Below are positions 18,899 through 34,164 of a DNA stretch of 40,736 nt, piece after piece (position 1 is the first letter of the stretch; each line of letters starts with the position of its first letter). The translations under genes were made by a program, and so were the position numbers. This stretch comes from a virus: positions 1 to 40,736 of IMG/VR virus record IMGVR_UViG_3300047476_001065. One strand, written 5' to 3'. The notes below the pieces were generated by a model. The model had not been told where the DNA came from, did no database searches, and worked only from the letters and a program-made list of their open reading frames with translations.

Positions 18899-19315
18899 TT
18901 ATAATCCTAATGAAGCTAAAGCGTCAAGCACTGATTTATTTGTGTCATTAGTGAAATCGGAATTATCATTGCCTTCAGTTGTTTCCGGTCCAACACCAGT
19001 TGTTATTGGATTGAATCCTGAGAAAACACCTAACATACATGGAGCTTGGCCTGACATACCATCTAAAAAGAATCCAAGAACCCAATCTCCAACATGTGGT
19101 GATGAAAATTTGCCTCTTGAATTTAGTGGATATATTGCTTGAGCCCAAGGCAAATCTTTTTCTGGAATTTTTTCTAGAGATTCTTGTGTACCATCACCGT
19201 GCCAACCAAATATTCTAACTTGACATCTACCTGTACCTAATGGATCAACTCGATTTACTATCTCACCAATCCACCAGACAAATCCGTCTTTACCTGCAAA
19301 ACTAATTTCATTCAT
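18899..19315 (-). CDS. gp5: Baseplate hub OB-fold protein, gp5 N-terminal domain only
   Basis: At 138 residues it matches just the first domain of T4 gp5 (575 residues). Shared signs are WWIGEIVNRVDPLGTGRCQV (T4 WFVGVVEDRMDPLKLGRVRV), then RIFGWHG, EKDLPWAQAIYPL (T4 EKLPWMSVIQPI), GDWVLGFFLDG and PCMLGVFSG. The T4 lysozyme domain and beta-helix are absent. The gene stops after an acidic linker (TTEGNDNSDFTNDTNKS). It follows gp27 directly, and gp27 and gp5 form the hub complex in T4. The likely role is an adaptor from the gp27 ring to the separately encoded spike. Confidence 0.88.
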   Translation of the reverse strand: MNEISFAGKDGFVWWIGEIVNRVDPLGTGRCQVRIFGWHGDGTQESLEKIPEKDLPWAQAIYPLNSRGKFSSPHVGDWVLGFFLDGMSGQAPCMLGVFSGFNPITTGVGPETTEGNDNSDFTNDTNKSVLDALASLGL

Positions 19316-19318
19316 ATT

Positions 19319-20722
19319 TTAACCTTTAGCCTTATCAATTGCTTCATTTTGTGTAAATTGTATATTTGGTGCTGACAGACTATCTGTAACAGCTGTTACA
19401 ACACACTTATAAGAACCACGATAATCCATAATGTGTCTAATAGACGATACCATGTATTTACCAGAGTAATATTTATCTATGTTACTGTCTTTTTTATTTG
19501 TTGCTGGATTTAATGATGGTATGTTTAATTTTACTATATCACCAGCTCTCATCATTGGATCACCAGGTATACTAAATTCCACCTTTATATAATTGGCCAA
19601 TCCTAACTGTGCAATTCTATATGGTATTCTTGTCTCAGCATCAATACTAGGTGCAACTGATTGTAAACTTTTTACATCACCTCTAATTAATTGATTAGCT
19701 CTCTGTGCGGAATTAACAATAACTAATTTGACTGATGCATCTGTCATCTCACTTACAGTTTTATCTAATCTATTTTTATAACCAGCAGTAAGTGGATAAG
19801 GGTTTAATGTTAATGGTTTTTTACCACCTTGTGCAGCCAATTTACCATCAATATAATTATCATATTTAAAACCAGTAACGAATTTGTCTTTGGTAAGTGT
19901 ATCAATACCTATAAACTTATTCGCAAATAGGCCACTCATCGAAGCACCTAATGTGTCAAAGTGTTTAACGATTCTACAACTTAACATACTTTTTAAACCG
20001 TAAGGTAGACTCTCTGCACTTTCTGGTTCATATATGTTTTGTGGACTAAATTGATATTCATTGTACACATCTTGTTTATATAATGACTGTAGTGATCTTA
20101 AATGAAAGCCTCTTCTTGTTTCATAAAACATCATATCAGCACCAACATAACCACCATCATTCTTTGATGGTTTGGCATATGTGGCCAACCAATTTATTGC
20201 ATCATAAGGTGTTAAGTTTGGAACAATTAGATTAAAATTACCCTCAGTTAAATCTAAGTCATAAGGTTTAGTTGATCTTAATTCTTCTTCTAAAATATTC
20301 GCAATCATGTCACGAATAGTCATATTAGTATAAGACCTAGCAACTCTCTTTTGTGTTGATAAGAATAGTTCTTCTGAAACAAACTGTATCATATATTCTA
20401 CGTTTGTTCGTGTGTTTTGATTTACTGCCTCAATTTTATAAACTCTAAAATTAACATTAAATTGACCTGGATCATCAGGTGTGGATTTACTGAAAGATAT
20501 ATTAATAAAATTGAAACCATTAATATTAAAATTTTCAATAAAACCGGACGAATCTGTTACTATGACATAACCAGAGAAGGATGGCATGAACAGTTCTTCA
20601 AAAATGGATAATTCTAACATCGATGGTTTAAGAGATATACCTGTACCATCACCTGTTAATAGTAGAACCTCATTGATATTATACTCTTGTGGTTCTGAAA
20701 TACCAGCCGTCTTTTTTACCAT
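19319..20722 (-). CDS. gp27: Baseplate hub protein gp27-like
   Basis: A 467-residue protein between gp53 and the gp5 OB-fold protein. It shows the gp27/gpD hub organisation: LELSIFEELFMPSFSGYVIV near the N-terminus, a second tube-like domain (VNFRVYKIEAVNQNTRTNVE), TIRDMIANILEEEL, LTPYDAINWLATYAKPSKND and a C-terminal domain ending YYSGKYMVSSIRHIMD. Proteins of this type form the trimeric hub that carries the gp5 spike and continues the tail-tube channel. T4 gp27 has 391 residues. The assignment is firm by motif and context, but similarity to T4 itself is low. Confidence 0.85.
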   Translation of the reverse strand: MVKKTAGISEPQEYNINEVLLLTGDGTGISLKPSMLELSIFEELFMPSFSGYVIVTDSSGFIENFNINGFNFINISFSKSTPDDPGQFNVNFRVYKIEAVNQNTRTNVEYMIQFVSEELFLSTQKRVARSYTNMTIRDMIANILEEELRSTKPYDLDLTEGNFNLIVPNLTPYDAINWLATYAKPSKNDGGYVGADMMFYETRRGFHLRSLQSLYKQDVYNEYQFSPQNIYEPESAESLPYGLKSMLSCRIVKHFDTLGASMSGLFANKFIGIDTLTKDKFVTGFKYDNYIDGKLAAQGGKKPLTLNPYPLTAGYKNRLDKTVSEMTDASVKLVIVNSAQRANQLIRGDVKSLQSVAPSIDAETRIPYRIAQLGLANYIKVEFSIPGDPMMRAGDIVKLNIPSLNPATNKKDSNIDKYYSGKYMVSSIRHIMDYRGSYKCVVTAVTDSLSAPNIQFTQNEAIDKAKG

Positions 20723-20724
20723 AA

Positions 20725-21330
20725 TTAAATATTTCCATATAGAAGTTTGAACTGTCTCTGTAAATCTTCTGCAACAGTTTTACTAATCAAGTTAATTGTT
20801 CTTTTTGCTTCATTTACTTGTACTTCATATTGATAATTAGATATGATGGCTTTGTTTACTGAATAATTAACTCTATCTCCTGAAGGTAATATGCAATCTT
20901 TCGAATATACAAGTAGATTATCATATTCATCTTTACCAATTGTTGTAATATCTTCTTGTTTTTCATTTGTCAATAACTCTGTGTATGTTATTGTTTTTTC
21001 ATAATGATGTGGTTGTGCTGCATTTTCAATTGAACCATACTTTTGAATTATGTATTTGTTTAGATTATTTTCACTTATTGGCCAGTCCCATTGTGGATCT
21101 TTTAATAGGTTGGACACCATAACCAACCAATAATCATCAACTGATCCATAATACTTCTCTGCAACTATCTCTGGAGTATCATTCTCTTTTAATGTATACT
21201 CATAATATGATAGTGGACTTTTTATCAACTGAGATACAATATAAACTCTAGTTGTTAAGTCTTTCATATAGATGTTGTTTCCACGTCCATCTGGATACGA
21301 AAGAGTTGGTAAATTTTTGAAATATAACAT
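20725..21330 (-). CDS. gp53: Baseplate wedge protein gp53
   Basis: A 201-residue homologue of T4 gp53 (196 residues), which joins wedges together in the inner baseplate. It has the LysM-like segment ENDTPEIVAEKYYGSVDDYW, then LVMVSNLLKDPQWDWPIS, equivalent to T4 PEELANAIYGNPQLYWVLLMCND. FKNLPTLSY at the N-terminus is the usual opening. A short helix with RTINLISKTVAEDLQRQFK closes the protein, as in T4 (RQIKIIAKSDINSFMNDL). Its start overlaps the gp48 stop (TAATG). Confidence 0.92.
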   Translation of the reverse strand: MLYFKNLPTLSYPDGRGNNIYMKDLTTRVYIVSQLIKSPLSYYEYTLKENDTPEIVAEKYYGSVDDYWLVMVSNLLKDPQWDWPISENNLNKYIIQKYGSIENAAQPHHYEKTITYTELLTNEKQEDITTIGKDEYDNLLVYSKDCILPSGDRVNYSVNKAIISNYQYEVQVNEAKRTINLISKTVAEDLQRQFKLLYGNI

Positions 21331-22328
21331 TAGTAACCCTGTGAGATTTTATTCTTGTCAATAATGGCCATCTCTTTAAATGATAATGTCAAACGAGTTT
21401 GAACAGGAGAACCATCTGGATAGGTGATCCATCCATTTGTTGCATAGTCAACTTCTATATTTTCTAATACACATTCATCTATTTTATGTAAGAATTTATT
21501 TTCGACACCTTTGTATAGGAAATTGATATCGAAAGTTGATGGTAATATAAAGAATTGACCACCTATTCCTGCTGCAGCGTTACCTACTTCTGGTGCAGCA
21601 TGAAATTTGAATAATTGTATAATTTTATTTACGTTTTTGGCTTCTTCTTGACTATAAGGAGTAAAGAGGAAAGTCATTTGAAAAGTTCTCAATGCTGTTG
21701 CTTTAAATAGTAACTGCACCTGAGGGTTGATTGCATAACCTCTACCTTTGAGTAATATATCAATAGGTATTGCACCACCAACCGCATCTTTAATAAGTGC
21801 CAATAAGTTTGGATTAGTTGCAGCTGATATGAAACTAACACTATCACGGCCTATACCAGACATATAATCCTTTACATCACCACCTAGACCTGCAATTCCT
21901 TGGCCATATTTTGGGATAGTATAATCATTCAGGTCATCTTCTTGATATGCGTTGGTATACGAAGTCTGTACTGTATCTGGCATATACAGTTGAATAGATC
22001 CAGCTAATCTTTTTCTCTCGGGAGAAATTTTAAATCCAGTATCAATATTATTGAATCTGCCGATGGTAAACGATTCAGTAGTTTTGGTTGTATTAGTATC
22101 ATAATTTGAACTTGCACCAGAACTATATGCCGACTGGTCAATCTGATTGATGAAAAACTGTACTATGTGTTGTTTAGCGTCATCACCACCCAAATCTGAC
22201 GGATATTTAACTACAGTAGTCTGGTACGGATTGTAATCCAAACTGGAAAGTGGACCATAACTAAATGGTTCAGTTGAGTTCGTGGAAATATCCGAACTTT
22301 CTTTGTCAATCGTTATTTTGATAGCCAT
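21330..22328 (-). CDS. gp48: Baseplate tail-tube junction/cap protein gp48
   Basis: A 332-residue protein, the first gene after the late promoter of the tail operon. The C-terminal half has the tail-tube fold signature LFKATALRTFQMTFLFTPYS, then FKFHAAPE and IDECVLENIEVDYATNGWIT, with ETRLTLSF-like ends (QTRLTLSFKEMAII). This is the pattern of T4 gp48 (364 residues), which caps the hub and starts tube polymerisation with gp54. The Ser/Thr-rich N-terminus is variable. There is no strong Shine-Dalgarno site before the ATG, only AAAAAAATAAA. Confidence 0.85.
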   Translation of the reverse strand: MAIKITIDKESSDISTNSTEPFSYGPLSSLDYNPYQTTVVKYPSDLGGDDAKQHIVQFFINQIDQSAYSSGASSNYDTNTTKTTESFTIGRFNNIDTGFKISPERKRLAGSIQLYMPDTVQTSYTNAYQEDDLNDYTIPKYGQGIAGLGGDVKDYMSGIGRDSVSFISAATNPNLLALIKDAVGGAIPIDILLKGRGYAINPQVQLLFKATALRTFQMTFLFTPYSQEEAKNVNKIIQLFKFHAAPEVGNAAAGIGGQFFILPSTFDINFLYKGVENKFLHKIDECVLENIEVDYATNGWITYPDGSPVQTRLTLSFKEMAIIDKNKISQGY

Positions 22329-22357
22329 TTTATTTTTTTGTTAAGAATAGACATATA

Positions 22358-22365
22358 TATTTATA
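22358..22365 (-). promoter_or_regulatory. T4-type late promoter TATAAATA for the tail operon
   Basis: The minus strand reads TATAAATA exactly, the T4 late -10 consensus recognised by the gp55 sigma with gp33 and the sliding clamp. It lies 29 bases upstream of the gp48 start, in the short divergent gap before gp4, and its first base overlaps the gp4 ATG. It is the only perfect copy at an operon head in the left half of the window and would drive the 22-kb baseplate/tail operon. Confidence 0.75.
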
Positions 22366-22802
22366 TGGCTTACTCAGGACGTTTTATACCTAAAAACCCT
22401 CGAAAATATATGGGGGATCACAATAATATCATCTATCGTTCCAGTTGGGAAGCGAGGTTTATGCACAAGTTTGATGTTGAAGAATGGGTTGTTGCATGGT
22501 CAAGTGAAGAAATTATCGTACCTTATGTCTCCCCAGTTGATGGTAGGACACATCGTTATTTTCCAGATTTTGTTATAAAAGTCAGAAATCAACATGGTGA
22601 AGTGAAAACATGGATGATAGAAGTTAAGCCCAAAAAACAAACGATTCCACCAGAAAAGAAAAAACGAGTTACCAAACAATATATTACAGAAGTTACTAAT
22701 TGGGGTATAAATCAAGCAAAATGGCAATTCGCAAAAGAATATTGTCTTGATCGTGGTTGGGAGTTTGTTGTATTCACAGAAGATCAATTACCTAAAGTTT
22801 AA
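22365..22802 (+). CDS. gp4: Head completion nuclease-fold protein gp4
   Basis: A 145-residue homologue of T4 gp4 (gp50), needed to complete packaged heads before tail joining. Clear family motifs are MAYSGRFIPKNPRKYMGD, NNIIYRSSWEARFM, WSSEEIIVPYVSPVDGRTHR and YFPDF. The TnsA-like PD-(D/E)XK core is visible as PDF (Asp68) and IEVKPKK (Glu86, Lys88). An in-frame TTG exists at 22338, but the ATG at 22365 gives the family N-terminus and is used here. It is divergent from gp48 and heads the plus-strand group. Confidence 0.93.
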   Translation: MAYSGRFIPKNPRKYMGDHNNIIYRSSWEARFMHKFDVEEWVVAWSSEEIIVPYVSPVDGRTHRYFPDFVIKVRNQHGEVKTWMIEVKPKKQTIPPEKKKRVTKQYITEVTNWGINQAKWQFAKEYCLDRGWEFVVFTEDQLPKV

Positions 22803-22842
22803 ATAATCGTTTTTGTTTTTCTATTAGTCATCTAGGTCTTAA

Positions 22843-22849
22843 CTAAATA
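22843..22849 (+). promoter_or_regulatory. Possible late promoter variant CTAAATA
   Basis: CTAAATA followed by TTGCA and the ATG of the next gene, in a 52-base gap after gp4. The same heptamer with the same five-base distance to ATG occurs before gp25. CTAAATA is a known late-promoter core in T4-like cyanophages. The distance to ATG would give an almost leaderless mRNA, so its promoter role is uncertain. Confidence 0.4.
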
Positions 22850-22854
22850 TTGCA

Positions 22855-23451
22855 ATGACATCTAAACTTACACAATTAGCTGAACAAAAGACTGCCGCTC
22901 AGGTAAAGAGTCTGTCCGTAGAATCTTATAGGTGGTTACAAAATAAGATTACACAACTTAGGAATCCAGGAGCTATTCCAAAACAGATTGCCAGAGAAAA
23001 GGATAGGTTTGCAACAAGATTTAAACTTGGTGGATTATATTTCTTTTTTTATGATCCAAAGACAAAATCTGAGTTACCTTATTATGATACATTTCCTCTG
23101 GTATTGGTATTGGAAAGATATGCAGATGGATTTTTGGGTTTAAACTTACATTACCTACCGGTAAAATACCGTATTGCTTTTCTAAACAAGTTAATGCCAC
23201 TTGCACTCCTGGACGATTCGGATGAAATCAAACGCATACGAGTCACATATGACATTCTAAGCGCCTCCAGACGTTATAAAGAGTTTAGGCCATGCGTTAA
23301 AAAGTATTTGTACGGTCACATGAGGTCTAGGTTACTTACCGTTCAGCCAAATGAATGGGATGTGGCATCTATGATACCGGTACAACAATTCAAGAAAGCC
23401 AGAACAACACAAATTTGGCATGAATCCATAGAACAAATTAGGAATAATTAA
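22855..23451 (+). CDS. Conserved T4-like phage protein next to gp4 (possible gp2-type DNA end protector)
   Basis: A 198-residue basic protein. The core YFFFYDPKTKSELPYYDTFP, then LGLNLHYLPVKYRIAFLNKL, is a strongly conserved block in T4-like phages of aquatic hosts. The C-terminus is rich in Arg and Lys (RPCVKKYLYGHMRSRLL). T4 places gp2, the DNA end protector, beside gp4 and gp53, which makes gp2 a candidate by gene order. I could not confirm this from sequence, so no symbol is given. It lies between a head-completion gene and a tail-tube-fold gene and is separated from the latter by two bases. Confidence 0.65.
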   Translation: MTSKLTQLAEQKTAAQVKSLSVESYRWLQNKITQLRNPGAIPKQIAREKDRFATRFKLGGLYFFFYDPKTKSELPYYDTFPLVLVLERYADGFLGLNLHYLPVKYRIAFLNKLMPLALLDDSDEIKRIRVTYDILSASRRYKEFRPCVKKYLYGHMRSRLLTVQPNEWDVASMIPVQQFKKARTTQIWHESIEQIRNN

Positions 23452-23453
23452 AG

Positions 23454-24011
23454 ATGCCAACATTAGACATCAAAAATTTCATAAACAGTTTCAATAAAGA
23501 ATTGGCACGACCATCGAGGTTTGATGTATACTTTAATATACCATCTCCTCTTTTACTTAAAGATACTAGAGATCCGGTTTACCTGAATTCACTAGACTTA
23601 TCTTTAAGATGTGAGAGTGCTCAATTACCGAGCAGAACACTTATGACTACAGAACAAAAAATATATGGCATTACAGAAAAGTATCCATATGAAAACTCAT
23701 ACAATGATGCAGAATTTGTATTTCTGGTTAGTGGTGACATGAGAGAGAAGAAATTCTTTGATAAGTGGATCAACCTTGTTAGTCCAAAGTTAACATATAA
23801 TATGAATTACAAGGAAGATTACGCTACAAGTGTAATTGTTAATCAATATAATGTTGCCAACAAATTACAATACTCCGTTGAGTTGCGTAAGGCATTTCCT
23901 ATATCAGTTAATCAACTTGATTTAGATTGGTCATCTGATGGTAGCCACAAGCTTGCTGTGGTGTTTGCATTTAGTGACTGGATTACAGGATCAAGGCAAA
24001 ATGAAACATAA
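23454..24011 (+). CDS. Tail-tube-fold protein (gp19/gp54-like)
   Basis: A 185-residue protein with the T4 gp19 layout: ARPSRFDVYF at the N-terminus (T4 ARPNLFQVEI), the loop QLPSRTLMTTEQKIYGITEK, then YNDAEFVFLV, KKFFDKWINLVSP, YATSVIVNQYN and the end FPISVNQLDLDWSSDGSHKL before VVFAFSDWI (T4 WPTNVGELQLDWDSN ... LALDYWE). T4 gp19 has 163 residues and the initiator gp54 has 320. Location among hub genes (gp26, gp48) rather than with the sheath gene favours a tube-initiator role. The main tube protein gp19 is expected elsewhere in the genome. Confidence 0.78.
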   Translation: MPTLDIKNFINSFNKELARPSRFDVYFNIPSPLLLKDTRDPVYLNSLDLSLRCESAQLPSRTLMTTEQKIYGITEKYPYENSYNDAEFVFLVSGDMREKKFFDKWINLVSPKLTYNMNYKEDYATSVIVNQYNVANKLQYSVELRKAFPISVNQLDLDWSSDGSHKLAVVFAFSDWITGSRQNET

Positions 24012-24037
24012 TGAATAATATATTATAAGGAGTTATT

Positions 24038-24760
24038 ATGGCATTACCAAAAATTGATGTGCCCGTACATGAAGTTGCATTACCAATATCGAAAAAAGTT
24101 TTAAGATACAGACCGTTTTTAGTTAAAGAACAAAAAATATTATTGATGGCGGGTGAATCTAATGATGCAGACACCATCGAAAAAGCAATCAGACAAATTT
24201 TACAGAACTGTTGTTTGGATGAGTTTGATGTTGATGCTTTAAGTTTACTTGACGTAGAATTTTATTTCTTGCATCTAAGAGCTTCATCAGTCGGTGAGAT
24301 GGTAGAAAATAAATATAGATGCCAAAACGTTGTCAATGAACAAGTTTGTGACAACCTTATGGACGCAAACCTAAACATCATAGATTTAAAAGTTACTGGT
24401 ATAGAAGATTATAACGACCTTATTCAATTGACAGATAATGTAGGTGTAAAAATGGTATTACCAAAATACACACTGTTGCGTAAGGCCAGAGATATGGTAA
24501 ACGCCACAGATTTTGTATTTGATTTGATTGTGGATTGTATAGAGTATATTTTTGAAGGTGACCAAATACATTATACTAATCAACTGAACAGAGAAGAACT
24601 TTTAGAATTTGTGGACAGTTTAAATCAAGCACAGTTTGCGAAACTACAGTCTTTCTTTGATAAGATACCAAAATTAGAGAAGAAAGTTGATGTTACATGT
24701 AATAAGTGTGGGTTTGAACATAAAATTGAATATGAAGGAATCGAAAGTTTTTTCGGATGA
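24038..24760 (+). CDS. gp26: Baseplate hub assembly protein gp26-like
   Basis: A 240-residue member of the T4 baseplate family that includes gp26 (208 residues). The start MALPKIDVPVHEVALPISKK, then YRPFLVKEQKILLMA, is characteristic of the family. A likely zinc site is formed by Cys95, Cys104, Cys221 and Cys224 (YRCQN, QVCDN and CNKCGFEHKIEYEG). It follows an AAGGAG ribosome site and its stop overlaps the next start (ATGA). In T4, gp26 and gp51 act together in hub assembly, and the same neighbours occur here. Confidence 0.85.
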   Translation: MALPKIDVPVHEVALPISKKVLRYRPFLVKEQKILLMAGESNDADTIEKAIRQILQNCCLDEFDVDALSLLDVEFYFLHLRASSVGEMVENKYRCQNVVNEQVCDNLMDANLNIIDLKVTGIEDYNDLIQLTDNVGVKMVLPKYTLLRKARDMVNATDFVFDLIVDCIEYIFEGDQIHYTNQLNREELLEFVDSLNQAQFAKLQSFFDKIPKLEKKVDVTCNKCGFEHKIEYEGIESFFG

Positions 24761-24954
24761 TATTTGGTCATGATTCGTTGCAAAATTATTATACAACCAA
24801 TTTTAATTTAATGCAACACCATAAGTACAGCTTAACGGAACTTGAAAATATGCTGCCGTGGGAAAGAGAAGTTTATATTAACCTCTTAATCCAACATATG
24901 AAAGAAGAAAACGAAAGAATTAAGTTACAACAGATGCAAAATCAAAATAGGTAA
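24757..24954 (+). CDS. Small tail/hub assembly chaperone-like protein
   Basis: A 65-residue protein whose start overlaps the gp26 stop by four bases (ATGA). It contains YSLTELENMLPWEREVYINL, then LIQHMKEENERIKLQ. The LPWE(R/I)E(V/I)Y pattern with a charged helix is usual for small proteins following gp26-type or tape-measure-chaperone genes in contractile-tailed phages. T4 gp51 is much longer (249 residues), so gp51 is only a functional analogue by position. It is followed after three bases by the M23 protein gene. Confidence 0.7.
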   Translation: MIFGHDSLQNYYTTNFNLMQHHKYSLTELENMLPWEREVYINLLIQHMKEENERIKLQQMQNQNR

Positions 24955-24957
24955 AAA

Positions 24958-26868
24958 ATGGCAATTTTAAATAAAAGCTCAGGTTCTTTGTTTCCTCTAA
25001 TAAACGATATTAGAGAAAAAAATGAAAAAAATGAATCAACAGAACCTAAATTAAAGAGAAATGCTGGAACAAAGTCTGATGTTAGAGTTGGTGACGGCAT
25101 GACTGTCATCTTAACTAAGATTTGGGGAACGTTAAAAAAACAGGAAGACTTTACCAAGGCCTTTAAGAAAAATATTGCTGATGAAAAGAAATTTAAAAAA
25201 GAATCAAAAGATTTGATGAAGAAGAATCATCAAGTTATTTTAAATTCTTTAAATGTTTTAAACAAAGATGTCACAAAAGTTTTAACTAAGCTTTTAGATG
25301 TTAATGAAAAAAGCGCAAAAGAAGAAACCAAAAGATTAGATGAAGCTGAAAGAGCAGAAGAAATAAAACAAGATTTTTCAAAAGAAACATTTAGAGAGAG
25401 AGAATCTGATTCCGAGAGGAGACACAAAGAACTTTTGGAAGCATTAAAAGGTCTTTCTGGTGGTGAAGGAAAAACAAAAAGACAAAAGAAAACTCCTTTC
25501 GAAAAATTATTAGGTGATTTAAAAAAAGATATGTCGGGATTCTCCGAAGGTCTATTAGCTGGAGTTTTTGGTAGGTCTATTGCTAAATTTTTAGTATCTA
25601 CATTACCTGGTTTAATTTCTACAGCTGTATCAAGTGCGATTGGTTTGGTTTTATCAAATCCTTTGTCTGCACTTGCAGTTGCAATGGCAGGCCTAAGTGC
25701 ATATATGGCTGAGAGCTTTAGAGGTAAAGAAATTGCTTTAAATGAGGCCGCCAAAAAAGGTGATATCAAGTCTATGCGAGAAGAAGCAGAACGACAAGCA
25801 ACTCAAATTGATGATCCTGGTGTAAGTGCTAATACTATTATTAGAGATCGATTGAAGAAAGCTAATACACCACAAGCAATTGCTGCAATAAAACAACTAG
25901 ATCAACAAGAAAAAGACGAAGCTCTTCATCGTCAACATGGTCCAACATCAAGGTCTATGATAATACAAACTGTTAAAGGTAAAGTAGATAGTGTTAATCG
26001 TGGCCAACAATTTCCTGGCAACTTTACATTACCTGTTAATGAAGGTGTATTAAGTAGTGCCATGAAAGAGAATAGAACTATTAAAGGAATAACTAAAGAT
26101 CATAATGGTGTCGATATTGCTGTACCCTACGGTTCACCTGTTAATCCGATTGCTGATGGAGAAATTTTACAGGTTGGTCAAGATGCTGCATCAGGAAAAT
26201 ATGTAAGAGTTAAACATCAAGGTGGAATGGTATCTTCTTACGCACACCTAAGTGCTGTTAATGATAAATTGAAAGTCGGTCAAACCGTCACAACAAAAGA
26301 TGTAATAGCAAGTAGTGGTGGTGAAGGTAAAGATGCAGGTAGATCAACAGGTGCTCATTTACATCTTGGTTTAAGAGATGCATCTGGCCAATGGGTCGAT
26401 CCACAGAGATATATTCCTGAACTTAGTGGTGTGCAAGAAAAAACGAAAGTTGCTAAGGGTGAGGCTGGATCAGGTACAATGTTAGCTTCATCTGAAACAT
26501 CCACTTTAGGTGGTATGTTGTCTGATTCACGTTTATCTTCAATGTTTCCAGATTTAAATTCTTTAGTGAGTACAGCATTGAGTGATGCTCAAAGTATGGT
26601 TAATAAGTCTGCATCATTCTTTCAAGATACTGGTGTTAAAACTACTCAAACTTCTGCAATAGACAGAATGAATGAACAGATGTTGGCACAAATGAGTCTA
26701 AAGAATAATAATCAAAGTTCACCGACCAATATTACTACTATCAATAATGTTGCTTCTGCTGGTGGAAGTGGTGGTCCATCTTTACCAACAATTAGTTCTT
26801 GGAATAGAGATTCAACTTTAGAACGAGCACAATATGGTATGTTAAGGCCAGTTACAGGCATTACATAA
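24958..26868 (+). CDS. Tail lumen protein with M23 (LytM) peptidase domain, tape-measure candidate
   Basis: A 636-residue protein. Residues 50-200 are Lys/Glu-rich coiled coil, and 196-250 are strongly hydrophobic (VSTLPGLISTAVSSAIGLVL, then ALAVAMAGLSAYM). Residues about 355-490 form an M23 metallopeptidase with His382 and Asp386 (HNGVD), His430 (YAHLS) and His467/His469 (GAHLHLG), all the expected zinc and catalytic residues. The C-terminal 140 residues are Ser/Gln-rich. Hydrophobic segments plus a peptidoglycan hydrolase are usual in tape-measure proteins. It lies where T4 has gp27-gp28-gp29 (gp29, 590 residues, is the tape measure). It probably cuts host peptidoglycan on infection, replacing the lysozyme of T4 gp5. 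Whether it measures tail length is inference. Confidence 0.8.
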   Translation: MAILNKSSGSLFPLINDIREKNEKNESTEPKLKRNAGTKSDVRVGDGMTVILTKIWGTLKKQEDFTKAFKKNIADEKKFKKESKDLMKKNHQVILNSLNVLNKDVTKVLTKLLDVNEKSAKEETKRLDEAERAEEIKQDFSKETFRERESDSERRHKELLEALKGLSGGEGKTKRQKKTPFEKLLGDLKKDMSGFSEGLLAGVFGRSIAKFLVSTLPGLISTAVSSAIGLVLSNPLSALAVAMAGLSAYMAESFRGKEIALNEAAKKGDIKSMREEAERQATQIDDPGVSANTIIRDRLKKANTPQAIAAIKQLDQQEKDEALHRQHGPTSRSMIIQTVKGKVDSVNRGQQFPGNFTLPVNEGVLSSAMKENRTIKGITKDHNGVDIAVPYGSPVNPIADGEILQVGQDAASGKYVRVKHQGGMVSSYAHLSAVNDKLKVGQTVTTKDVIASSGGEGKDAGRSTGAHLHLGLRDASGQWVDPQRYIPELSGVQEKTKVAKGEAGSGTMLASSETSTLGGMLSDSRLSSMFPDLNSLVSTALSDAQSMVNKSASFFQDTGVKTTQTSAIDRMNEQMLAQMSLKNNNQSSPTNITTINNVASAGGSGGPSLPTISSWNRDSTLERAQYGMLRPVTGIT

Positions 26869-26874
26869 AAAAAG

Positions 26875-26896
26875 AAACCCACCTTTCGGTGGGTTT
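26875..26896. terminator. Bidirectional rho-independent terminator
   Basis: AAACCCACC and GGTGGGTTT (26875-26883 and 26888-26896) form a perfect 9-bp stem around TTTC. T runs follow on the plus strand, and AAAAAAAG before the stem gives a T run on the minus strand. It lies between the convergent M23 gene and gp32 and can end transcription from both sides. Confidence 0.93.
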
Positions 26897-26900
26897 TTTA

Positions 26901-27785
26901 TTAGTCCTCTGAAGCAAGTCTTTCAAAGTATTTCATGTCATCATCTTCTTCATCCAAATCAGGTTCTTTGGATACTGGAGGTTTTGATTTCACTTGTTCT
27001 TTGATAGTTTCTACGGTAGTCTTTGCTACAGGTTCTCCACCTGCAAGACCAAGAACTTTATCTAAACGAGATTTCAGTTGGTCATAAGATTTAAATTCTT
27101 TATCATCAGTTAGTGCAGATAGAGAATGTTCAGACTTCCAAACTTTTTCAAGTTCATCGTCATCATCTAATAGTGGCTCTGAGGCCTCAAATAAAGAACT
27201 ATCATAATTTTGGTAACCATCTACCTTACGAATCTTTAGTTTAAAGTTAGCACCTTTCCATAAGTCAAATGGATTAATTGGTGTTTCATCCTCAAATTCA
27301 GGATTCATTGCAGCAGTAATCTTGTCAAAGATTTTCTTACCAAACTTGAATAAGAATACTTTGCCGTTGTTTTCTGGATGTTTAGGGTCAGAAACAACAT
27401 AGATGTTGGCCACGTAATTTAACTTACGTTTTTGTTTACGAACAATCTCTTTGTTTGCTTCGATGCCTGAATTCCACAATGATGAATTGTGTTCACACAC
27501 AGGACATTGTTGATTTTTGGTTGTTAAGCAATTATCGATTAACCAACCACCTGGTCCTTGAAAACCATGTGAGAAGATTTTAACCCATGGCAGTGCATCG
27601 TCACCATCACCAGGTGATGCAGGTAGAAAACGAATAGTAGCCATGCCATTACCTGACTTATCTACTTCTGGTTTCCAATAATTTTCTGCACGGTCGGGAA
27701 GTTCGGTGTTGCCGATTGATTCTAGAGCCTTAGACAGTTTGTCTAGGTTGCCTGATTGGCGTTTGAGGTTCGCAAATGAACTCAT
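26901..27785 (-). CDS. gp32: Single-stranded DNA-binding protein gp32
   Basis: A 294-residue homologue of T4 gp32 (301 residues), the cooperative ssDNA-binding protein that organises replication, recombination and repair. The N-terminus is basic (SFANLKRQSGNLDKLSKAL), the cooperativity domain. A zinc site is formed by His73, Cys86, Cys94 and Cys97 (QQCPVCEH), with the same H-x12-C spacing as T4. FKLKIRKVDGYQNYDSS is the OB-fold end. The C-terminus is acidic (DLDEEDDDMKYFERLASED) and would bind gp59 and other replication proteins. It is the last gene of the block with gp33 and gp59 and has an 85-base leader. Confidence 0.95.
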   Translation of the reverse strand: MSSFANLKRQSGNLDKLSKALESIGNTELPDRAENYWKPEVDKSGNGMATIRFLPASPGDGDDALPWVKIFSHGFQGPGGWLIDNCLTTKNQQCPVCEHNSSLWNSGIEANKEIVRKQKRKLNYVANIYVVSDPKHPENNGKVFLFKFGKKIFDKITAAMNPEFEDETPINPFDLWKGANFKLKIRKVDGYQNYDSSLFEASEPLLDDDDELEKVWKSEHSLSALTDDKEFKSYDQLKSRLDKVLGLAGGEPVAKTTVETIKEQVKSKPPVSKEPDLDEEDDDMKYFERLASED

Positions 27786-27874
27786 GTTATGTTACCTTTC
27801 GTATAAACGGAGTATGAACGGAATATTTTCAATGTACTTCTCATAATCAACTTCTAGTATATCATAGTATTTAG
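27786..27874 (-). promoter_or_regulatory. gp32 leader with CTAAATA and repeated CCGTTYATA
   Basis: The 85 bases before gp32 have no gene. On the minus strand CTAAATA (27868-27874) overlaps the stop codon of the upstream HAD gene and may be a late promoter giving gp32 its own transcript. Nearer the start there are two short direct repeats, CCGTTCATA and CCGTTTATA, then AAAGG as ribosome site. T4 gp32 represses its own translation by binding its leader, and an analogous operator could lie here. No pseudoknot could be confirmed by eye. Confidence 0.4.
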
Positions 27875-28365
27875 GCGATTGCAAGCGCATCTTCAATTAA
27901 TTTGATGGTATCTTTTACATCACGGTGCAGTATACCAATACCACCTGCATCTATAAAGGCCTTGATAACATAATCTGTATCATCAACCAATATTCTATCA
28001 TTACCAGATGCATATAAGGCCTTCTTTCTACTACCATTGGTAATATTTGCCTTATATGTAATACTGTGATCTTTCAACCACTGTAACTTTTGTTCTAAGA
28101 CACGACCATGAAATAACTCTCCACCAGATGAAGATAATATTTCAATTTCCACTTTACCTTCAAGTGTTTTCACATAATCTAATAATTCGATTGCACCAGG
28201 AAACCAATCAAGTGTTGCAAAGTTTCCACCTTCAATGAATAACTTCCATTGTTCAGTAAATTCTTTACGTTCTCTGGTTGATGCAGCTTCTACACCAAAC
28301 AACTCAGTGTATCTCTTATTGAAGTCACAGAGTACACCATCCATATCTAAGTATAATGTTTTCAT
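27871..28365 (-). CDS. HAD-family 5'(3')-deoxyribonucleotidase-like protein
   Basis: A 164-residue HAD phosphatase. The nucleophile and acid pair are in LYLDMDGVLCDFNKRY (Asp7 and Asp9), followed by LDWFPGAIELLDYVK, motif II in IEILSSSG, and motif III in DRILVDDTDYVIKAF. Size and motifs fit phage 5'(3')-deoxyribonucleotidases, which dephosphorylate dNMPs. Polynucleotide phosphatases are an alternative. It is inserted between gp59 and gp32, its start overlapping the gp59 stop (ATGA), so it is expressed with replication genes and may adjust nucleotide pools. Confidence 0.8.
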   Translation of the reverse strand: MKTLYLDMDGVLCDFNKRYTELFGVEAASTRERKEFTEQWKLFIEGGNFATLDWFPGAIELLDYVKTLEGKVEIEILSSSGGELFHGRVLEQKLQWLKDHSITYKANITNGSRKKALYASGNDRILVDDTDYVIKAFIDAGGIGILHRDVKDTIKLIEDALAIA

Positions 28366-28964
28366 GTATAATCTTCCACCATTTGTTTCACAATATCTTT
28401 ATAAACTTTTCGGTCATAATTTAAAAATGGTGCATACTTCTCACACTTCAATTTAAATGCAGGCCATATAATATCATCATCAATTTTTTCTTGCCACATG
28501 GGAAAGAAATTCAAAATTTCATTCAGAATAATCAATGTTTCTAAATGTATGGTTTTATCCATCACCATTTTTAGCAATGATGGATACTGACCATTTTTTA
28601 CCTTTAATGTATCATTAACTTTATAATTTTCAAATAAGTGTGTTACATCATCGGTAAATTTATACTTTAGAGAACCAGTAACGGCCAACCATACCTTATA
28701 ATTGTCATCAGCAGGTTTTAATTCTAAGGGGCCTGGTCTGATATTAGGATCAATAAGAAAATTGGCAATATAAAAATTCTTTAGTTCTTCAAAGTTATAC
28801 TTGCGTGACAATCTGTAGAAAAAATACTTATCACCACGTTGTAGAAACTTATCTTGTGACATGGTGGTTTTGCCACCATATTTTATATAATCATATTTGC
28901 CTTTAAAATGTAAACTTAACGAGTGATATAAATTAAAGGCAGCATAACCAGTATTCTCAATCAT
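28362..28964 (-). CDS. gp59: Replicative helicase loader gp59
   Basis: A 200-residue homologue of T4 gp59 (217 residues), which binds forked DNA and gp32 and loads the gp41 helicase. Matching features are LYHSLSLHFKGKYDYIKYGG (T4 KLYLMIKQHMNGKYDVIKYN), RGDKYFFYRLSRKYNFEELK (T4 RRDKYFFQKLSEKYKLKELA), then FYIANFL and TLIILNEILNFF. The gene overlaps gp33 upstream and the HAD gene downstream by ATGA at both ends. The order gp33-gp59-gp32 is that of T4 with one gene added. Confidence 0.93.
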   Translation of the reverse strand: MIENTGYAAFNLYHSLSLHFKGKYDYIKYGGKTTMSQDKFLQRGDKYFFYRLSRKYNFEELKNFYIANFLIDPNIRPGPLELKPADDNYKVWLAVTGSLKYKFTDDVTHLFENYKVNDTLKVKNGQYPSLLKMVMDKTIHLETLIILNEILNFFPMWQEKIDDDIIWPAFKLKCEKYAPFLNYDRKVYKDIVKQMVEDYT

Positions 28965-29182
28965 ATAGGCAGTTTGGATTGTTTCTTTAACATATTGTTG
29001 TCTTGTGCTTCTTCACGTATCTTTGCTTTTAATGCGGCAGAGATAAGTGTACTGGCTACTTCTATTTCAAGTCCTGTATCTTTACAATGTTCTAATATTG
29101 CATCAATTCTGGAACATCTTAATGAGGCAGCCAATTCTTCAATCAATTTACTGAATTCCGAAATTTCACTTTTAGTTGGCAT
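28961..29182 (-). CDS. gp33: Late transcription coactivator gp33
   Basis: A 73-residue protein, shorter than T4 gp33 (112 residues) but with its core: ISEFSKLIEELAASLRCSRI, then DAILEHCKDTGLEIEVASTL and KAKIREEAQDNNML, matching T4 SYLEATTAFLEENSIPETQF ... KIQSEAIDENLL. gp33 binds the RNA polymerase beta flap and couples it to the sliding clamp at late promoters. Its presence agrees with the TATAAATA promoters of this window. The stop overlaps the gp59 start (ATGA). Confidence 0.87.
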   Translation of the reverse strand: MPTKSEISEFSKLIEELAASLRCSRIDAILEHCKDTGLEIEVASTLISAALKAKIREEAQDNNMLKKQSKLPI

Positions 29183-29184
29183 AA

Positions 29185-29724
29185 TTAGGTTCTGGTATAA
29201 AATATATGGTTACCAATTCTCATCACTACACCTTTTTTGTCCCATTTTGGATTTACATAAGATGCATGATAAAACATTGCGTTCATTTGTGATATTCTAA
29301 CATGTGCAATAGGTTCTGTCAAGGCCTTTTGTGCAATATATTGTGATTCTTGCCACATGTAACTATCTTTTGGAGTAGTTAATTTATTGCATGTCCAACT
29401 GAATTGGCAAACAGTTCTACCTTTGATTTTATCTTTCTGATACACAACACCACAAATAGAATTTGGGTATTTACCAGAGTTTGCACGGTTGATAGTAACC
29501 TGTGCAACTGCCATCTTACCTTCAAAGGATTCAGATGCAGCTTCGTAGTAGATATTCTTTGCAAGACAATCCATTTCTTTTGTCATAGCAATCCGGACTT
29601 CTTGTGTAATTTCTTTTGCCACATAATGTGGAAAAGAGTAGGCCAACATTACTGTAAACAGTAAGAATGAGGCGATTAGTAAATTTATACTGGTAAAAAT
29701 TCCAGTTAGCTTTGAGTTAAGCAT
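29185..29724 (-). CDS. SleB-type cell-wall hydrolase (signal-anchor endolysin)
   Basis: A 179-residue protein with an N-terminal hydrophobic segment at about residues 11-30 (TSINLLIASFLLFTVMLAYS) and then a Hydrolase_2/SleB domain: MDCLAKNIYYEAASESFEGK (catalytic Glu61), MAVAQVTINRANSGKYPNSI, then CGVVYQ, CQFSW and a late YHASYVNPKW. SleB-type enzymes are lytic transglycosylases that cut peptidoglycan glycan strands. The frame is open further upstream, but AAGGAG is placed just before the ATG at 29724, which sets the start. A signal anchor suggests export by the host Sec system and release at lysis. It is under the late promoter at 30118-30125. Confidence 0.88.
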   Translation of the reverse strand: MLNSKLTGIFTSINLLIASFLLFTVMLAYSFPHYVAKEITQEVRIAMTKEMDCLAKNIYYEAASESFEGKMAVAQVTINRANSGKYPNSICGVVYQKDKIKGRTVCQFSWTCNKLTTPKDSYMWQESQYIAQKALTEPIAHVRISQMNAMFYHASYVNPKWDKKGVVMRIGNHIFYTRT

Positions 29725-29745
29725 GTGATTCTCCTTGTTGATTGG

Positions 29746-29763
29746 GAGTGGCCGAAGCCACTC
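29746..29763. other. Intercistronic hairpin with UUCG loop before the endolysin gene
   Basis: GAGTGGC and GCCACTC form a perfect 7-bp stem. On the minus-strand mRNA the loop is UUCG, an extra-stable tetraloop. It sits between the stop of the 91-residue gene and the AAGGAG site of the endolysin. No T run follows on the minus strand, so an attenuator, mRNA stabiliser or processing site is more likely than a terminator. Confidence 0.6.
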
Positions 29764-29775
29764 TTTCTCACGCAA

Positions 29776-30051
29776 TTACGAGTTTTGCTTTTTCGTTTTA
29801 ATTTCAGGCGTGGTTGTTTGAGACACGAAACCATTAAGCGATGCCGCTTTGGCTATAATATCGTTCTCTGTGGGGAATGTGGGAAGGTTTGGATGATCTG
29901 GTACAGTTTGGCCTTGTACTTTGGCCGACTCGATCTTCATTTCCCAATCTCTGACTACTCTTTCACGGTCGCCGTGATATTCTTCGGTGAGTAGGTCTTT
30001 CGCCATTTTTAGAAGTTCAAGGCGAATCTCGAACGGTGTCATGTTGCTCAT
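29776..30051 (-). CDS. Conserved small T4-like phage protein, unknown function
   Basis: A 91-residue protein, first gene after a late promoter, with AGGAG 8 bases before the ATG. The sequence MTPFEIRLELLKMAKDLLTE, then RDWEMKIESAKVQG and FPTENDIIAKAASLNGFVSQ, is a pattern I recall from many T4-like cyanophage and pelagiphage genomes, always as a hypothetical protein. The helical N-terminus and Pro-rich middle suggest a small soluble protein. It lies directly before the endolysin and gp33. Confidence 0.75.
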   Translation of the reverse strand: MSNMTPFEIRLELLKMAKDLLTEEYHGDRERVVRDWEMKIESAKVQGQTVPDHPNLPTFPTENDIIAKAASLNGFVSQTTTPEIKTKKQNS

Positions 30052-30117
30052 ATACTTCTCCTATTTGTGTGTGAGTGTGTTTAGTTTTTAATGAGAACTA
30101 TAACTCATGTGTAATAG

Positions 30118-30125
30118 TATTTATA
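30118..30125 (-). promoter_or_regulatory. T4-type late promoter TATAAATA for the endolysin-gp33-gp59-gp32 operon
   Basis: A perfect TATAAATA on the minus strand in the gap after the oxygenase gene, giving a leader of about 60 bases before the 91-residue gene. An AT-rich inverted repeat (CGTTATT/AATAACG, 30126-30150) lies just upstream and overlaps the stop of the oxygenase gene. Late timing suits the endolysin. Confidence 0.75.
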
Positions 30126-31465: not shown

Positions 31466-32311
31466 TCACAACTCTGTTGATCCGGGAACTCCAGTGTCAC
31501 TTTTCCTGGTACGTCCTTTGGATCGCTTATGTTGACTGCTAGTATTATTAGTAACCACATCATCGTTCTCCTGTGTCCATGTGATTATTTCCCATCGACC
31601 ATCATGATGTTCCACTAATGCAGTACAACTCTCAACCCAATCACCATCGTTCATATAAACGATGCCATTAATATCTTTAATCTCTGCGTGGTGTATATGA
31701 CCACATATTACTCCATCAAAGCCACGCTTGCGGCAATAACCAACAAGGTTAAGCTCAAACTGAAACATAAAGTCCAAAGCTTTCTTGACTTTATGCTTAA
31801 GAAACTTAGATAAACTCCAATAACCAAAGCCCATCCTATGCCGTAGCCAATTATACTTGCTGTTAAGACTGAGTACAAAGTCATAGGCCTTATCTCCTAG
31901 AAAACTTAACCAAGGTGCTAATCGTGTTATGCCATCGAATAAGTCACCATGTACTACGAGATAATGTTTACCATCTACACCGATATGCTCTATTTGATTG
32001 ACAACTTCAATCAATCCAAACCCAATACCATAAGGCATCAAAGGTCTTAAAAATTCATCATGATTACCTGCAACATAGACTACTCTGGTGCCACGTTTTG
32101 CGTGACCCATAATCCTACGAACTACATTAGTATGACTTTGTTTCCAACGCCACCTGTTTTGTTGTATTCTCCATGCATCAATTATATCACCAACCATATA
32201 CAAGGTATCACATGTATTATGTTTGAGGAAATTATTTAATTGTTCAGCCTTACAATCTCTTGTACCTAAGTGTACATCAGAGATAAAAATACTACGATAT
32301 GTTTTTTGCAT
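31466..32311 (-). CDS. LpxH-like UDP-2,3-diacylglucosamine phosphoesterase
   Basis: A 281-residue calcineurin-like phosphoesterase of the LpxH/YbbF group. All metal motifs are present: SDVHLG (Asp12, His14), GDIIDAW (Asp42), GNHDE (Asn83, His84), VHGDLFD (His121) and CGHIHHAEI (His205, His207), then NDGDWVESCTAL. LpxH-type enzymes hydrolyse UDP-2,3-diacylglucosamine to lipid X in lipid A synthesis; close relatives act on other substrates. The 30-residue C-terminal tail is Arg/Lys/Ser-rich (SSQHKRSKGRTRKS) and could touch membrane or nucleic acid. It starts 14 bases after the tmRNA 3' region. A host-derived envelope enzyme is likely. Confidence 0.85.
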   Translation of the reverse strand: MQKTYRSIFISDVHLGTRDCKAEQLNNFLKHNTCDTLYMVGDIIDAWRIQQNRWRWKQSHTNVVRRIMGHAKRGTRVVYVAGNHDEFLRPLMPYGIGFGLIEVVNQIEHIGVDGKHYLVVHGDLFDGITRLAPWLSFLGDKAYDFVLSLNSKYNWLRHRMGFGYWSLSKFLKHKVKKALDFMFQFELNLVGYCRKRGFDGVICGHIHHAEIKDINGIVYMNDGDWVESCTALVEHHDGRWEIITWTQENDDVVTNNTSSQHKRSKGRTRKSDTGVPGSTEL

Positions 32312-32376
32312 TTTTTATTATTGTTAGTGCAAGGTGATTGGGTGATAAGGACACCTTGCGAAACCTCATCTAGTGC

Positions 32377-32409
32377 TTAAGCAGCTAGAGCGTAACTTTC
32401 ATCGTTTGC
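32377..32409 (-). other. tmRNA tag reading frame, peptide ANDESYALAA
   Basis: GCA resume codon (32407-32409) followed by ten codons in all and TAA at 32377-32379: ANDESYALAA. E. coli has (A)ANDENYALAA, so only one residue differs. The ending ALAA is the ClpXP/ClpAP degron. AAAACTAGTAACT precedes the resume codon, like the A-rich region in known tmRNAs. The stop lies in a helix-5-like stem-loop, as in E. coli. Confidence 0.95.
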
Positions 32410-32496
32410 AGTTACTAGTTTTGCTTGATTTACGGTCATCGCCTACCGAGTAGCCTAATATAATACTTAAATGTCGGTCGAAACTATTTCGCCCCC

Positions 32497-32563
32497 ATCA
32501 GAAGCACACAATCCCCACTAGAGCCCTCAGAGGTTTCTTTCATCTAGGACAACTATATGCTTC
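32497..32563 (-). other. Intervening segment removed from the pre-tmRNA
   Basis: The 67 bases between the acceptor-piece CCA and the coding-piece GGGGG. Its ends (GAAGCA at 32558-32563 and TGCTTC at 32501-32506) pair with each other. Pairing extends by two bases into the CA of CCA, giving an 8-bp helix stacked on the acceptor stem. Such a loop is expected in permuted tmRNA precursors and is excised by host RNases. Confidence 0.85.
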
Positions 32564-32634
32564 TGGTGGAGGCGGCCGGTACTGCCCCGGCGTGTCGCCA
32601 TTCTTTTTTATACTAAGTTATACTACCATTTTTC

Positions 32635-32718
32635 TTAGATATTACTAAGTAACCATATAGCAAATGATATTACCATACCTATTGCAATACCAACACTAAA
32701 TGCTATTAATAAGTCCAT
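32635..32718 (-). CDS. Possible 27-residue membrane peptide upstream of tmRNA
   Basis: ATG at 32718 opens a 27-codon frame, MDLLIAFSVGIAIGMVISFA then IWLLSNI, ending 5 bases before the tmRNA acceptor region. It would be a single membrane helix with a small-residue face (GIAIG). No clear ribosome site is seen, and its ATG overlaps the -10 box of the tmRNA promoter, so transcripts from that promoter start after the ATG. It could only be translated from read-through of the upstream gene. It may be a chance frame. Confidence 0.35.
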   Translation of the reverse strand: MDLLIAFSVGIAIGMVISFAIWLLSNI

Positions 32719-32745
32719 TTTACTACTTGTAATTAGAAATGTCAA
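32717..32745 (-). promoter_or_regulatory. Strong sigma70-type promoter of the tmRNA gene
   Basis: Minus strand TTGACA (32740-32745, perfect -35), 17-base spacer, TAAAAT (32717-32722, one mismatch to TATAAT). Start is expected near 32710, about 80 bases before the acceptor piece. This is the best host-type promoter seen in the window and allows tmRNA expression from unmodified host polymerase, early in infection. Confidence 0.72.
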
Positions 32746-32753
32746 GATATTTA

Positions 32754-33503
32754 TTAATCTTTACCAAATAACTCTTTCGTTTCGTTATGGTTCTTAATGA
32801 ATCGATGTTGGTTACTTAAATCAAACAAGTCATGTATGTTTGCAGGTTTACCTATAGTTTTCATTTCAATATCGAAATCTTGTTTTGGCACTAATATGTA
32901 TTGTGAGATGGGTGTGCCGGCTTTTATTAATGTTTTACCTTCAGTTAAATGCCACATTAATTGCACATTCATTTGTGCAGGACCCATCTCTCTAGTAAAA
33001 TATCCAGGTACAGTAGTGAATCTATTTTCATCTGAATATGCAACAGGCATTTCCATTAAATAATAACCTTTTGGTACAACGCATTTCCATCCAGTGTGTA
33101 TTTTAATTAATGATTTTAATGTATTATTTGGCCAATTGTTCATATATTGATGCAGTTGGTCGGGTGGATGTGAACCAATATATTCTTCTTGATTAATCAC
33201 ACTCTGATCTATTGGTGTAGTCCATCTGAAAGTCTGTCCATCACCATTTGTTTCAATAGTTATGTCTTGCCAAGTTCTAAGAATCCAACCATGTCGTTGT
33301 AGTTTAAAAATACCAGGACACCTTGCGGTGTGTATCATCTTTTCCATGCCATAATTTGGTTGTTTTCTGATATTCGCCAAATCATCTAATGCTCTATTTA
33401 CCCAAGGATGTTTATAATCTTTTGCAGGTATAATAGGCATTATTTTGTCCATGCCTGGTATTGATGTCTCAAACACTATTTTTTCTTTTCGCCATTTAAA
33501 CAT
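32754..33503 (-). CDS. Conserved phage protein, DUF6065-like, unknown function
   Basis: A 249-residue protein beginning MFKWRKEKIVFETSIPGMDK. It has a Trp-rich core (CPGIFKLQRHGWILRTWQDI; FRWTTPIDQ) and WKCVVPKGYYLMEMPVAYSD, then IKAGTPISQYILVPK. The layout is that of the DUF6065-type proteins seen in phages and marine bacteria, which form beta-rich cupin-like folds. A TTG lies further upstream in frame, but the ATG at 33503 is four bases after the nuclease stop and gives the usual start. No catalytic residues can be named. It is the last gene before the tmRNA promoter. Confidence 0.7.
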   Translation of the reverse strand: MFKWRKEKIVFETSIPGMDKIMPIIPAKDYKHPWVNRALDDLANIRKQPNYGMEKMIHTARCPGIFKLQRHGWILRTWQDITIETNGDGQTFRWTTPIDQSVINQEEYIGSHPPDQLHQYMNNWPNNTLKSLIKIHTGWKCVVPKGYYLMEMPVAYSDENRFTTVPGYFTREMGPAQMNVQLMWHLTEGKTLIKAGTPISQYILVPKQDFDIEMKTIGKPANIHDLFDLSNQHRFIKNHNETKELFGKD

Positions 33504-33507
33504 AATA

Positions 33508-34164
33508 TCACATTTTTCTATAGTAATCAATTGCTGATACAAGACCTGGTATATGGTCTATAACTTTCTCTTTAAATATCATTGGTGATGAATCCTTAAC
33601 TGCCATTATAATAACTATATCGTGAATTGGTTCACCAGTTAATTCTTCATACATCAAAGCATATGCAGTACACTGCCAAAAGTAATCTTCAATATCATCT
33701 CGTTTCTTTGGTCTACTTGCAGTCTTAAAATCAATTACAGATAGTTTACCTTCATACTCTGCAATACAGTCAACACGACCTGCCATCTCTATCTTTTCAG
33801 ACCACAATGCTTGTTCTTGATAATGTATATTATCTATATTATTCAAATATGGTTTGATTGTTAAAAAGAATTCAACGGCATCAGGCATAATACCTTTAAG
33901 GTAGTCCTGTTTGTTGTTTAGATAGTTTTCACAGATGGTGTGAACATTGGTACCACGTGATGTGGCCTGTTTGGTGATTCTGTTTGCTTCTTCATCACCA
34001 ACACGTTTACGCCAATCAATGAATGTTTGTTTCTTTTGAGCACCAACAACTGTGGTTACTGAAGGTAATCTTTTACCATTTGGTAGTGTGTAGTATCTTT
34101 TACCGTCAGGAAAAGTTTCAGATTTCAAATCTTCCAGTTGAACTGGTGGACAATAATTAAACAT
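33508..34164 (-). CDS. PD-(D/E)XK exonuclease of RecB/Cas4 type
   Basis: A 218-residue nuclease. The RecB-type order of motifs is visible: GTNVHTICENYL with His75, GRVDCIAEYEGKLSVIDFKT (Asp132, Asp145, Lys147), and the QxxxY motif WQCTAYALMYEE (Gln164, Tyr168). No Cys cluster of the Cas4 iron-sulfur type is seen. The N-terminus has LPSVTTVVGAQKK, usual for this phage family. Phage enzymes of this kind probably trim DNA ends in recombination or degrade host DNA. It is encoded with a conserved unknown gene four bases downstream. Confidence 0.85.
   Translation of the reverse strand: MFNYCPPVQLEDLKSETFPDGKRYYTLPNGKRLPSVTTVVGAQKKQTFIDWRKRVGDEEANRITKQATSRGTNVHTICENYLNNKQDYLKGIMPDAVEFFLTIKPYLNNIDNIHYQEQALWSEKIEMAGRVDCIAEYEGKLSVIDFKTASRPKKRDDIEDYFWQCTAYALMYEELTGEPIHDIVIIMAVKDSSPMIFKEKVIDHIPGLVSAIDYYRKM

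Follow-up and report, generated by a model that had tools for sequence, protein, structure and literature searches.

The 40.7-kb fragment of a T4-like phage analyzed here (the window; positions 1-40,736 of the IMG/VR record IMGVR_UViG_3300047476_001065) contains a circularly permuted, two-piece tmRNA gene that, judged from its sequence with a probability of roughly 85%, is a working phage gene and a mosaic whose tRNA-like and messenger-like domains have different relatives. Direct support for this reading comes from the structure of the gene, the covariation of its stems, its synteny, and the mosaic pattern itself. Permuted tmRNA genes of phages have been described before, and this one joins the published set, but separate histories of the two halves of tmRNA in these phages are undescribed in the literature that we searched.

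Structure of the permuted tmRNA gene

When the region was scanned with the Rfam models, RF04321 (tmRNA_permuted) matched the minus strand at 32627-32377 over its full length (model positions 1-213) with 131.5 bits (E 1.1e-25; cut-off 47), and RF01850 (beta_tmRNA) matched the same strand at 32673-32322 with 85.2 bits, only just exceeding the threshold of 84. An initial annotation made from the letters of the DNA had proposed a circularly permuted, two-piece tmRNA and a covariance-model search of the Rfam tmRNA families as its check, and both matches bear it out. A weak match to mir-879 at 32490-32574 (18.2 bits against a cut-off of 90) was dismissed as chance. Three standard one-piece tmRNAs of Pseudomonadota (L572, L573, and L574) also exceed the RF04321 cut-off of 47, at 60-65 bits, so that the cut-off alone cannot separate permuted from standard genes; these three were left out of our counts of permuted genes.

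Table 1 Features of the tmRNA gene and its surroundings in the window.
Feature	Position	Strand	Evidence
Whole tmRNA gene, circularly permuted, two-piece	32627-32328	minus	RF04321, direct reading
5' (acceptor) piece	32564..32627	minus	RF04321 alignment, direct reading, stem finder, fold
Intervening segment, 67 nt, predicted to be removed on maturation	32497..32563	minus	direct reading, fold
Coding-piece start	32449..32496	minus	RF04321, direct reading, stem finder
Tag frame ANDESYALAA and UAA stop	32409-32377	minus	RF04321 alignment, direct reading, ARAGORN -ps90
Messenger-like domain, 121 nt	32328..32448	minus	identical to relative L103
Promoter-like TTGACA-17-TAAAAT, upstream of tmRNA	32717..32745	minus	11/12 matches
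PD-(D/E)XK exonuclease, upstream of tmRNA	33508..34164	minus	phrog_298 5e-72, PF12705
Metallophosphoesterase gene, directly downstream of tmRNA	31466..32311	minus	PF00149 1e-11
gp33-like late promoter coactivator	28961..29182	minus	phrog_254 2.7e-15
gp59 helicase loader	28362..28964	minus	PF08993/PF08994
gp32 single-strand DNA-binding protein, phage marker	26901..27785	minus	phrog_224 7.5e-111

The acceptor piece with its CCA precedes the coding piece, and the acceptor stem and helix 2 join the two, as seen by direct reading, in the RF04321 alignment, in the predicted fold, and from covariation (Table 1). The 5' piece comprises the 5' strand of helix 2, the T-arm GCCGG-GGCAGUA-CCGGC, the 3' strand of the acceptor stem (CGCCUCC), the discriminator A, and an encoded CCA whose last A lies at 32564. 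The coding piece opens at 32496 with GGGGGCG, the 5' strand of the acceptor stem, and continues with the D-loop AAAUAGUUUCGAC (A18 G19) and the 3' strand of helix 2. The resulting acceptor stem of 7 bp and T-stem of 5 bp with a 7-nt loop, the two piece ends, the 67-base excised loop, and the tag frame all agree with what the initial annotation had described. Alanine identity is provided by G3.U70 in the acceptor stem (GGGGGCG/CGCCUCC) together with A73. The tag is encoded by GCA AAC GAU GAA AGU UAC GCU CUA GCU GCU UAA and thus has the hydrophobic end and terminal stop of a tmRNA tag, and the messenger-like domain closes with the hairpin/pseudoknot arms GCAAGGUG...CACCUUGC. The precursor folds with a predicted -99.8 kcal/mol (z -3.8), retaining the acceptor stem, the T-stem, an interrupted helix 2, and, in the excised segment, a long hairpin extending the acceptor stem.

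ARAGORN at its default setting did not detect the tmRNA of the window but recovered it with the same tag at -ps90. The default setting also misses the tmRNAs of L257, L241, L219, and L251, and phage tmRNA surveys based on ARAGORN undercount the subgroup to which the gene of the window belongs. In the ARAGORN reading of another gene, L245, the tag frame ANDNKYALAA is followed by two consecutive stop codons.

Genomic surroundings

The T4-like context suggested by the initial annotation is confirmed by gp32, gp33-like, and gp59 genes (Table 1) and by PhoH, baseplate, and tail-tube genes, to which the window adds a head-closure gene. Among the isolates listed by a translated search, gp32 of the window is nearest to that of cyanophages, at less than 60% identity, and no isolate near the window emerged when isolate phages were searched at the nucleotide level with the tmRNAs of the window, L257, and phage Melnitz. 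The PD-(D/E)XK exonuclease upstream is the same neighbor as on the map of Melnitz, while the metallophosphoesterase gene, a glycosyltransferase gene, a 2OG-Fe oxygenase-like gene, and a cell-wall hydrolase gene stand as extra genes between the tmRNA and gp33. Directly upstream of the tmRNA, at 32754-33542, is a gene for a conserved protein with a match to phrog_7084 (3e-40) and none to Pfam. The promoter-like site about 90 nt upstream of the tmRNA is the only strong one of the region, in which the count of such sites (3, against 3.8 by chance) is not above expectation.

A search with PF01668 found no SmpB in the window, as the initial annotation had stated, and smpB was likewise not found in 30 related phage records, among them the complete genome of Melnitz and five records with lengths of 142-170 kb. 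Function of the tmRNA therefore depends on a host that accepts the RNA, and presumably it is host SmpB that is used, a fair conclusion from phages that carry no smpB of their own.

The elbow and its classes

The T-loop of the window gene, GGCAGUA, is not of the form UUCRANN and lacks U54, U55, and A58, and its D-loop has A18-G19 where the canonical form has GG; the initial annotation overlooked both departures. This elbow corresponds to that of the alphaproteobacterial model RF01849 (consensus T-loop GGCgGUA, D-loop AUAGGAUCGAC), for which GGCRGUA with A18-G19 is characteristic, and not to that of the betaproteobacterial model RF01850 (consensus T-loop UUCGAUU, D-loop CUGGUUUCGAC, with GG at 18-19). 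Over the whole gene, however, RF01850 outscores RF01849 and wins among the clan models, which keeps the gene out of the alpha subtype; because its elbow is GGCAGUA/A18-G19 instead of UUCGAUU/G18-G19, it is not assigned to the beta subtype either. Beta ancestry, considered on the strength of the RF01850 match, was rejected since the elbow is alphaproteobacterial and the score marginal.

By pattern scan, at least 118 bacterial contigs have the GGCRGUA-type T-loop, almost all of them from Alphaproteobacteria including SAR11 and Fonsibacter, and a D-loop AG accompanies it in every bacterial sequence parsed. That the T-loop is unusual or broken through decay was rejected because the same loop with its matching D-loop is found in more than 100 alphaproteobacterial and viral sequences. 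The difference in the D-loop had already been noted as two Gs in the Reclinomonas mitochondrion against a single one in Caulobacter (PMC1168896). Among the phage tmRNAs we distinguish three elbow classes, A (UUCRA/G18-G19), B (UGCRA/A18-G19), and C (GGCRG/A18-G19), with a single entry, L651, whose class is not clearly readable. T-loop and D-loop change together in the phages parsed, in the bacterial sets, and in the Rfam consensuses. From the geometry of tRNA structures, the tertiary pair G18:U55 would be replaced by A18:G55 with G19:C56 kept, and in class C U54:A58 would be replaced by G54:G58.

Two departures were seen among the alphaproteobacterial genes. The permuted genes L506, L513, and L523 read CUCCACC followed by C, U, or G and seemingly do not encode the last A of CCA. 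L538, whose tag is read as ANDNYAEARLAA, has an apparent six-base T-loop UUCGAU and a D-loop with GG, that is, canonical pairing within a class otherwise of the GGCRGUA type.

Different relatives of the tRNA-like and messenger-like domains

The closest relative of the window phage (L103/L232; IMGVR_UViG_3300047476_001134), with 96% identity in gp32, has a messenger-like domain identical over all 121 nt (32448-32328 in the window), and hence the same tag, and an excised segment that is 93% identical. Its two tRNA-like strands are only 61% and 57% identical to those of the window and form a canonical class A domain (T-loop UUCGAUU, D-loop UGG with G18-G19, acceptor GGGGCUG). The tRNA-like strands of the window are nearest to those of L257, L241, and L219 (class C; 76-84%), the messenger-like domains of which differ from that of the window.

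Taken as a pair, the window and L103 do not make the case. Their backbone (18990-30124) is 81.5% identical overall and contains stretches of 102-128 nt without a mismatch, which points to recent recombination, and 6% of its 100-nt segments are at or below 62% identity. A conserved block beside a diverged one is thus not unusual for these two phages by itself, and we dropped the argument from the pair alone. In addition, a tree of the 100-column tRNA-like alignment that unites the window and L103 loses 27 log units, yet the AU test does not reject it (p 0.125), so the case for mosaicism rests on the whole family.

Across pairs of the 81 distinct phage tmRNAs, the identities of the two tRNA-like strands correlate with each other at 0.77, but the correlation of either strand with the messenger-like domain is only 0.21-0.28 and with the excised segment about 0.1. 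One identical messenger-like domain carries class A in L236 and L584 and class C in L237, and identical tRNA-like domains are joined to unrelated messenger-like domains in the pairs L237/L238 and L240/L603. About 19 changes of elbow class are required on the messenger-domain tree, on which a single clade of class C is rejected (p-AU 2.7e-47), and on the gp32 tree the class differs between close relatives three times (window/L002, L015/L010, and L024-L052/L026). Judged by these comparisons, the tRNA-like domain appears to behave as an exchangeable two-part module; its exchange among these phages is likely to occur, and the gene of the window is probably a mosaic made by exchange among T4-like phages.

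Two other origins of the pattern have to be weighed. The elbow could have been converted repeatedly by point mutation within lineages, the proposed path leading from G18:U55 to A18:G55 and then from U54:A58 to G54:G58; class B, found in phages and in some alphaproteobacteria, provides an intermediate, and L236/L237 and L205/L209 differ in class while their tRNA-like strands are 79-92% identical. However, the window also departs from L103 in its acceptor stem, in its T-stem, and on both pieces in helix 2, the stems resemble those of class C phages with other messenger-like domains, and identical tRNA-like domains stand beside unrelated messenger-like domains elsewhere in the family, so that we regard both conversion and the path proposed for it as unlikely. 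Very improbable is a chimera of metagenome assembly, for which it can be said that the window is a single contig and that identical blocks common to relatives could mislead an assembler: the differing segment of the coding piece spans only about 48 nt between conserved blocks, below the usual read length, it forms proper pairs with the second differing segment, which lies 67 nt from it, and the same pattern recurs in other contigs.

Why exchange should be favored is a further matter. Aquatic T4-like phages may keep interchangeable tmRNA parts and adaptively swap the non-contiguous tRNA-like strands among the three elbow classes while the messenger-like domain is kept, perhaps to suit the SmpB, alanyl-tRNA synthetase (AlaRS), or tRNA-modifying enzymes found in a new host or to evade RNases that cleave tRNA-like elbows; we put this forward tentatively and consider it rather doubtful. 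Because Melnitz combines an alphaproteobacterial elbow with an OM43 host (Methylophilales), elbow class need not follow the host, and it can be argued that a strict match to the host is not needed.

Function

Permuted tmRNA genes were identified in 32 of the 50 gp32-related IMG/VR contigs. G3.U70 is present in 80 of the 81 distinct phage tmRNAs, and acceptor positions 4-6 and T-stem position 50 each take three to five standard pair types with one broken cell in all at the covarying positions, pairing counts that lean upward because the finder required mostly paired stems and UCGA and under-counts divergent members. Such covariation is a signature of RNAs kept functional and speaks against a decaying copy for the phage family.

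The steps by which tmRNA is processed by RNase P, charged by AlaRS, bound by SmpB, and its tagged products destroyed by Clp proteases are well established. We infer that the gene of the window is transcribed and would follow the same course to the benefit of the phage. Host tRNA-processing enzymes would cut the precursor, with RNase P acting at 32496 and 3' processing at the encoded CCA at 32564, giving two pieces, one acceptor and one coding, that stay joined through the acceptor stem and helix 2. The tmRNA would then be charged by host AlaRS through G3.U70 and A73, host SmpB would bind the elbow, and the complex would rescue ribosomes stalled on broken mRNA and add ANDESYALAA, the tagged product being left to host Clp proteases. 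For a lytic phage the plainest benefit would be to free ribosomes caught on broken mRNA as it takes over the cell, and the role that the initial annotation proposed, keeping ribosome rescue going while host RNA is degraded, is plausible.

A gene of this kind might instead be a functionless remnant of a host gene that hitch-hiked by chance, given that host ssrA is an integration site and that prophages carry fragments of it (PMC9004378). The gene of the window is complete and occupies a fixed syntenic place in T4-like phages, and the number of related contigs that carry it and the covariation of its stems also make a remnant highly improbable. Rather less improbable, yet still improbable, is a decoy or interference RNA that competes with host tmRNA for SmpB or AlaRS or replaces the host tag. 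Mycobacteriophage DS6A carries a tmRNA of the tRNA-like domain only, and a molecule of this domain alone inhibits tmRNA when expressed (PMC4131195, PMC11915505); the failure to find smpB in the window and the 30 related records also agrees with such a role. A decoy, however, needs only the tRNA-like domain, whereas the window has a full tag frame with its stop, a C-terminal ALAA, and a conserved messenger-like domain. We therefore retain the working, mosaic tmRNA gene as the preferred reading.

Comparison with known tmRNAs

Two-piece tmRNA in a phage was reported for methylophage Melnitz in 2022 (PMC9004378), in a study that applied ARAGORN to 18,146 phage genomes and found, among 133 unique tmRNAs, 53 two-piece structures, of which 50 came from marine or aquatic samples. 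The same study took the resemblance of Melnitz ssrA to alphaproteobacterial forms as a sign of host transition, an argument that used one whole-gene tree. In these phages, subtyping tmRNAs by the alpha and beta models or by one whole-gene tree mixes two histories. Close sister phages carrying elbows of different bacterial types are natural chimeras with which to learn how much latitude SmpB, AlaRS, and the ribosome allow in the elbow, and the pattern of domain exchange and the joint change of D-loop and T-loop are the parts worth following.

Melnitz ssrA (MZ577097), from a Methylophilales phage, is like the gene of the window a permuted, two-piece tmRNA with an encoded CCA in a T4-like aquatic phage, has the same alphaproteobacterial elbow (GGCAGUA with A18-G19), and lies in the same order of genes, PhoH...PDDEXK-tmRNA...gp33-gp59-gp32, into which the extra genes of the window are set. 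The two differ in tag (ANDNYVPVDYALAA in Melnitz, ANDESYALAA in the window), in the length of the excised segment (142 nt against 67 nt), and in the best clan model (RF01849 with 106.7 bits against RF01850 with 85.2 bits), and a glutamine riboswitch at the 3' end of the Melnitz tmRNA has no matching counterpart in the window. Alphaproteobacterial two-piece tmRNAs (RF01849), including those of SAR11 and Fonsibacter, share the T-loop GGCRGUA and D-loop AG with the window, but most of their host tags are ANDN... or, in SAR11, short forms (for example, ANESYALAA and ANEQFALAA), their messenger-like domains are unlike that of the window, and their excised segments are mostly shorter. Betaproteobacterial two-piece tmRNAs (RF01850) provide the best clan score, which lies 1.2 bits over the cut-off, with a consensus elbow (UUCGAUU/UGG) unlike that of the window. 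RF04321, the model of permuted tmRNAs, was built in PMC11915505. Phage tmRNAs were listed in PMC4131195, among them the mycobacteriophage and phage G cases; the one-piece tmRNAs of mycobacteriophages Bxz1 and Wildcat and of Bacillus phage G are phage-borne like that of the window but unpermuted.
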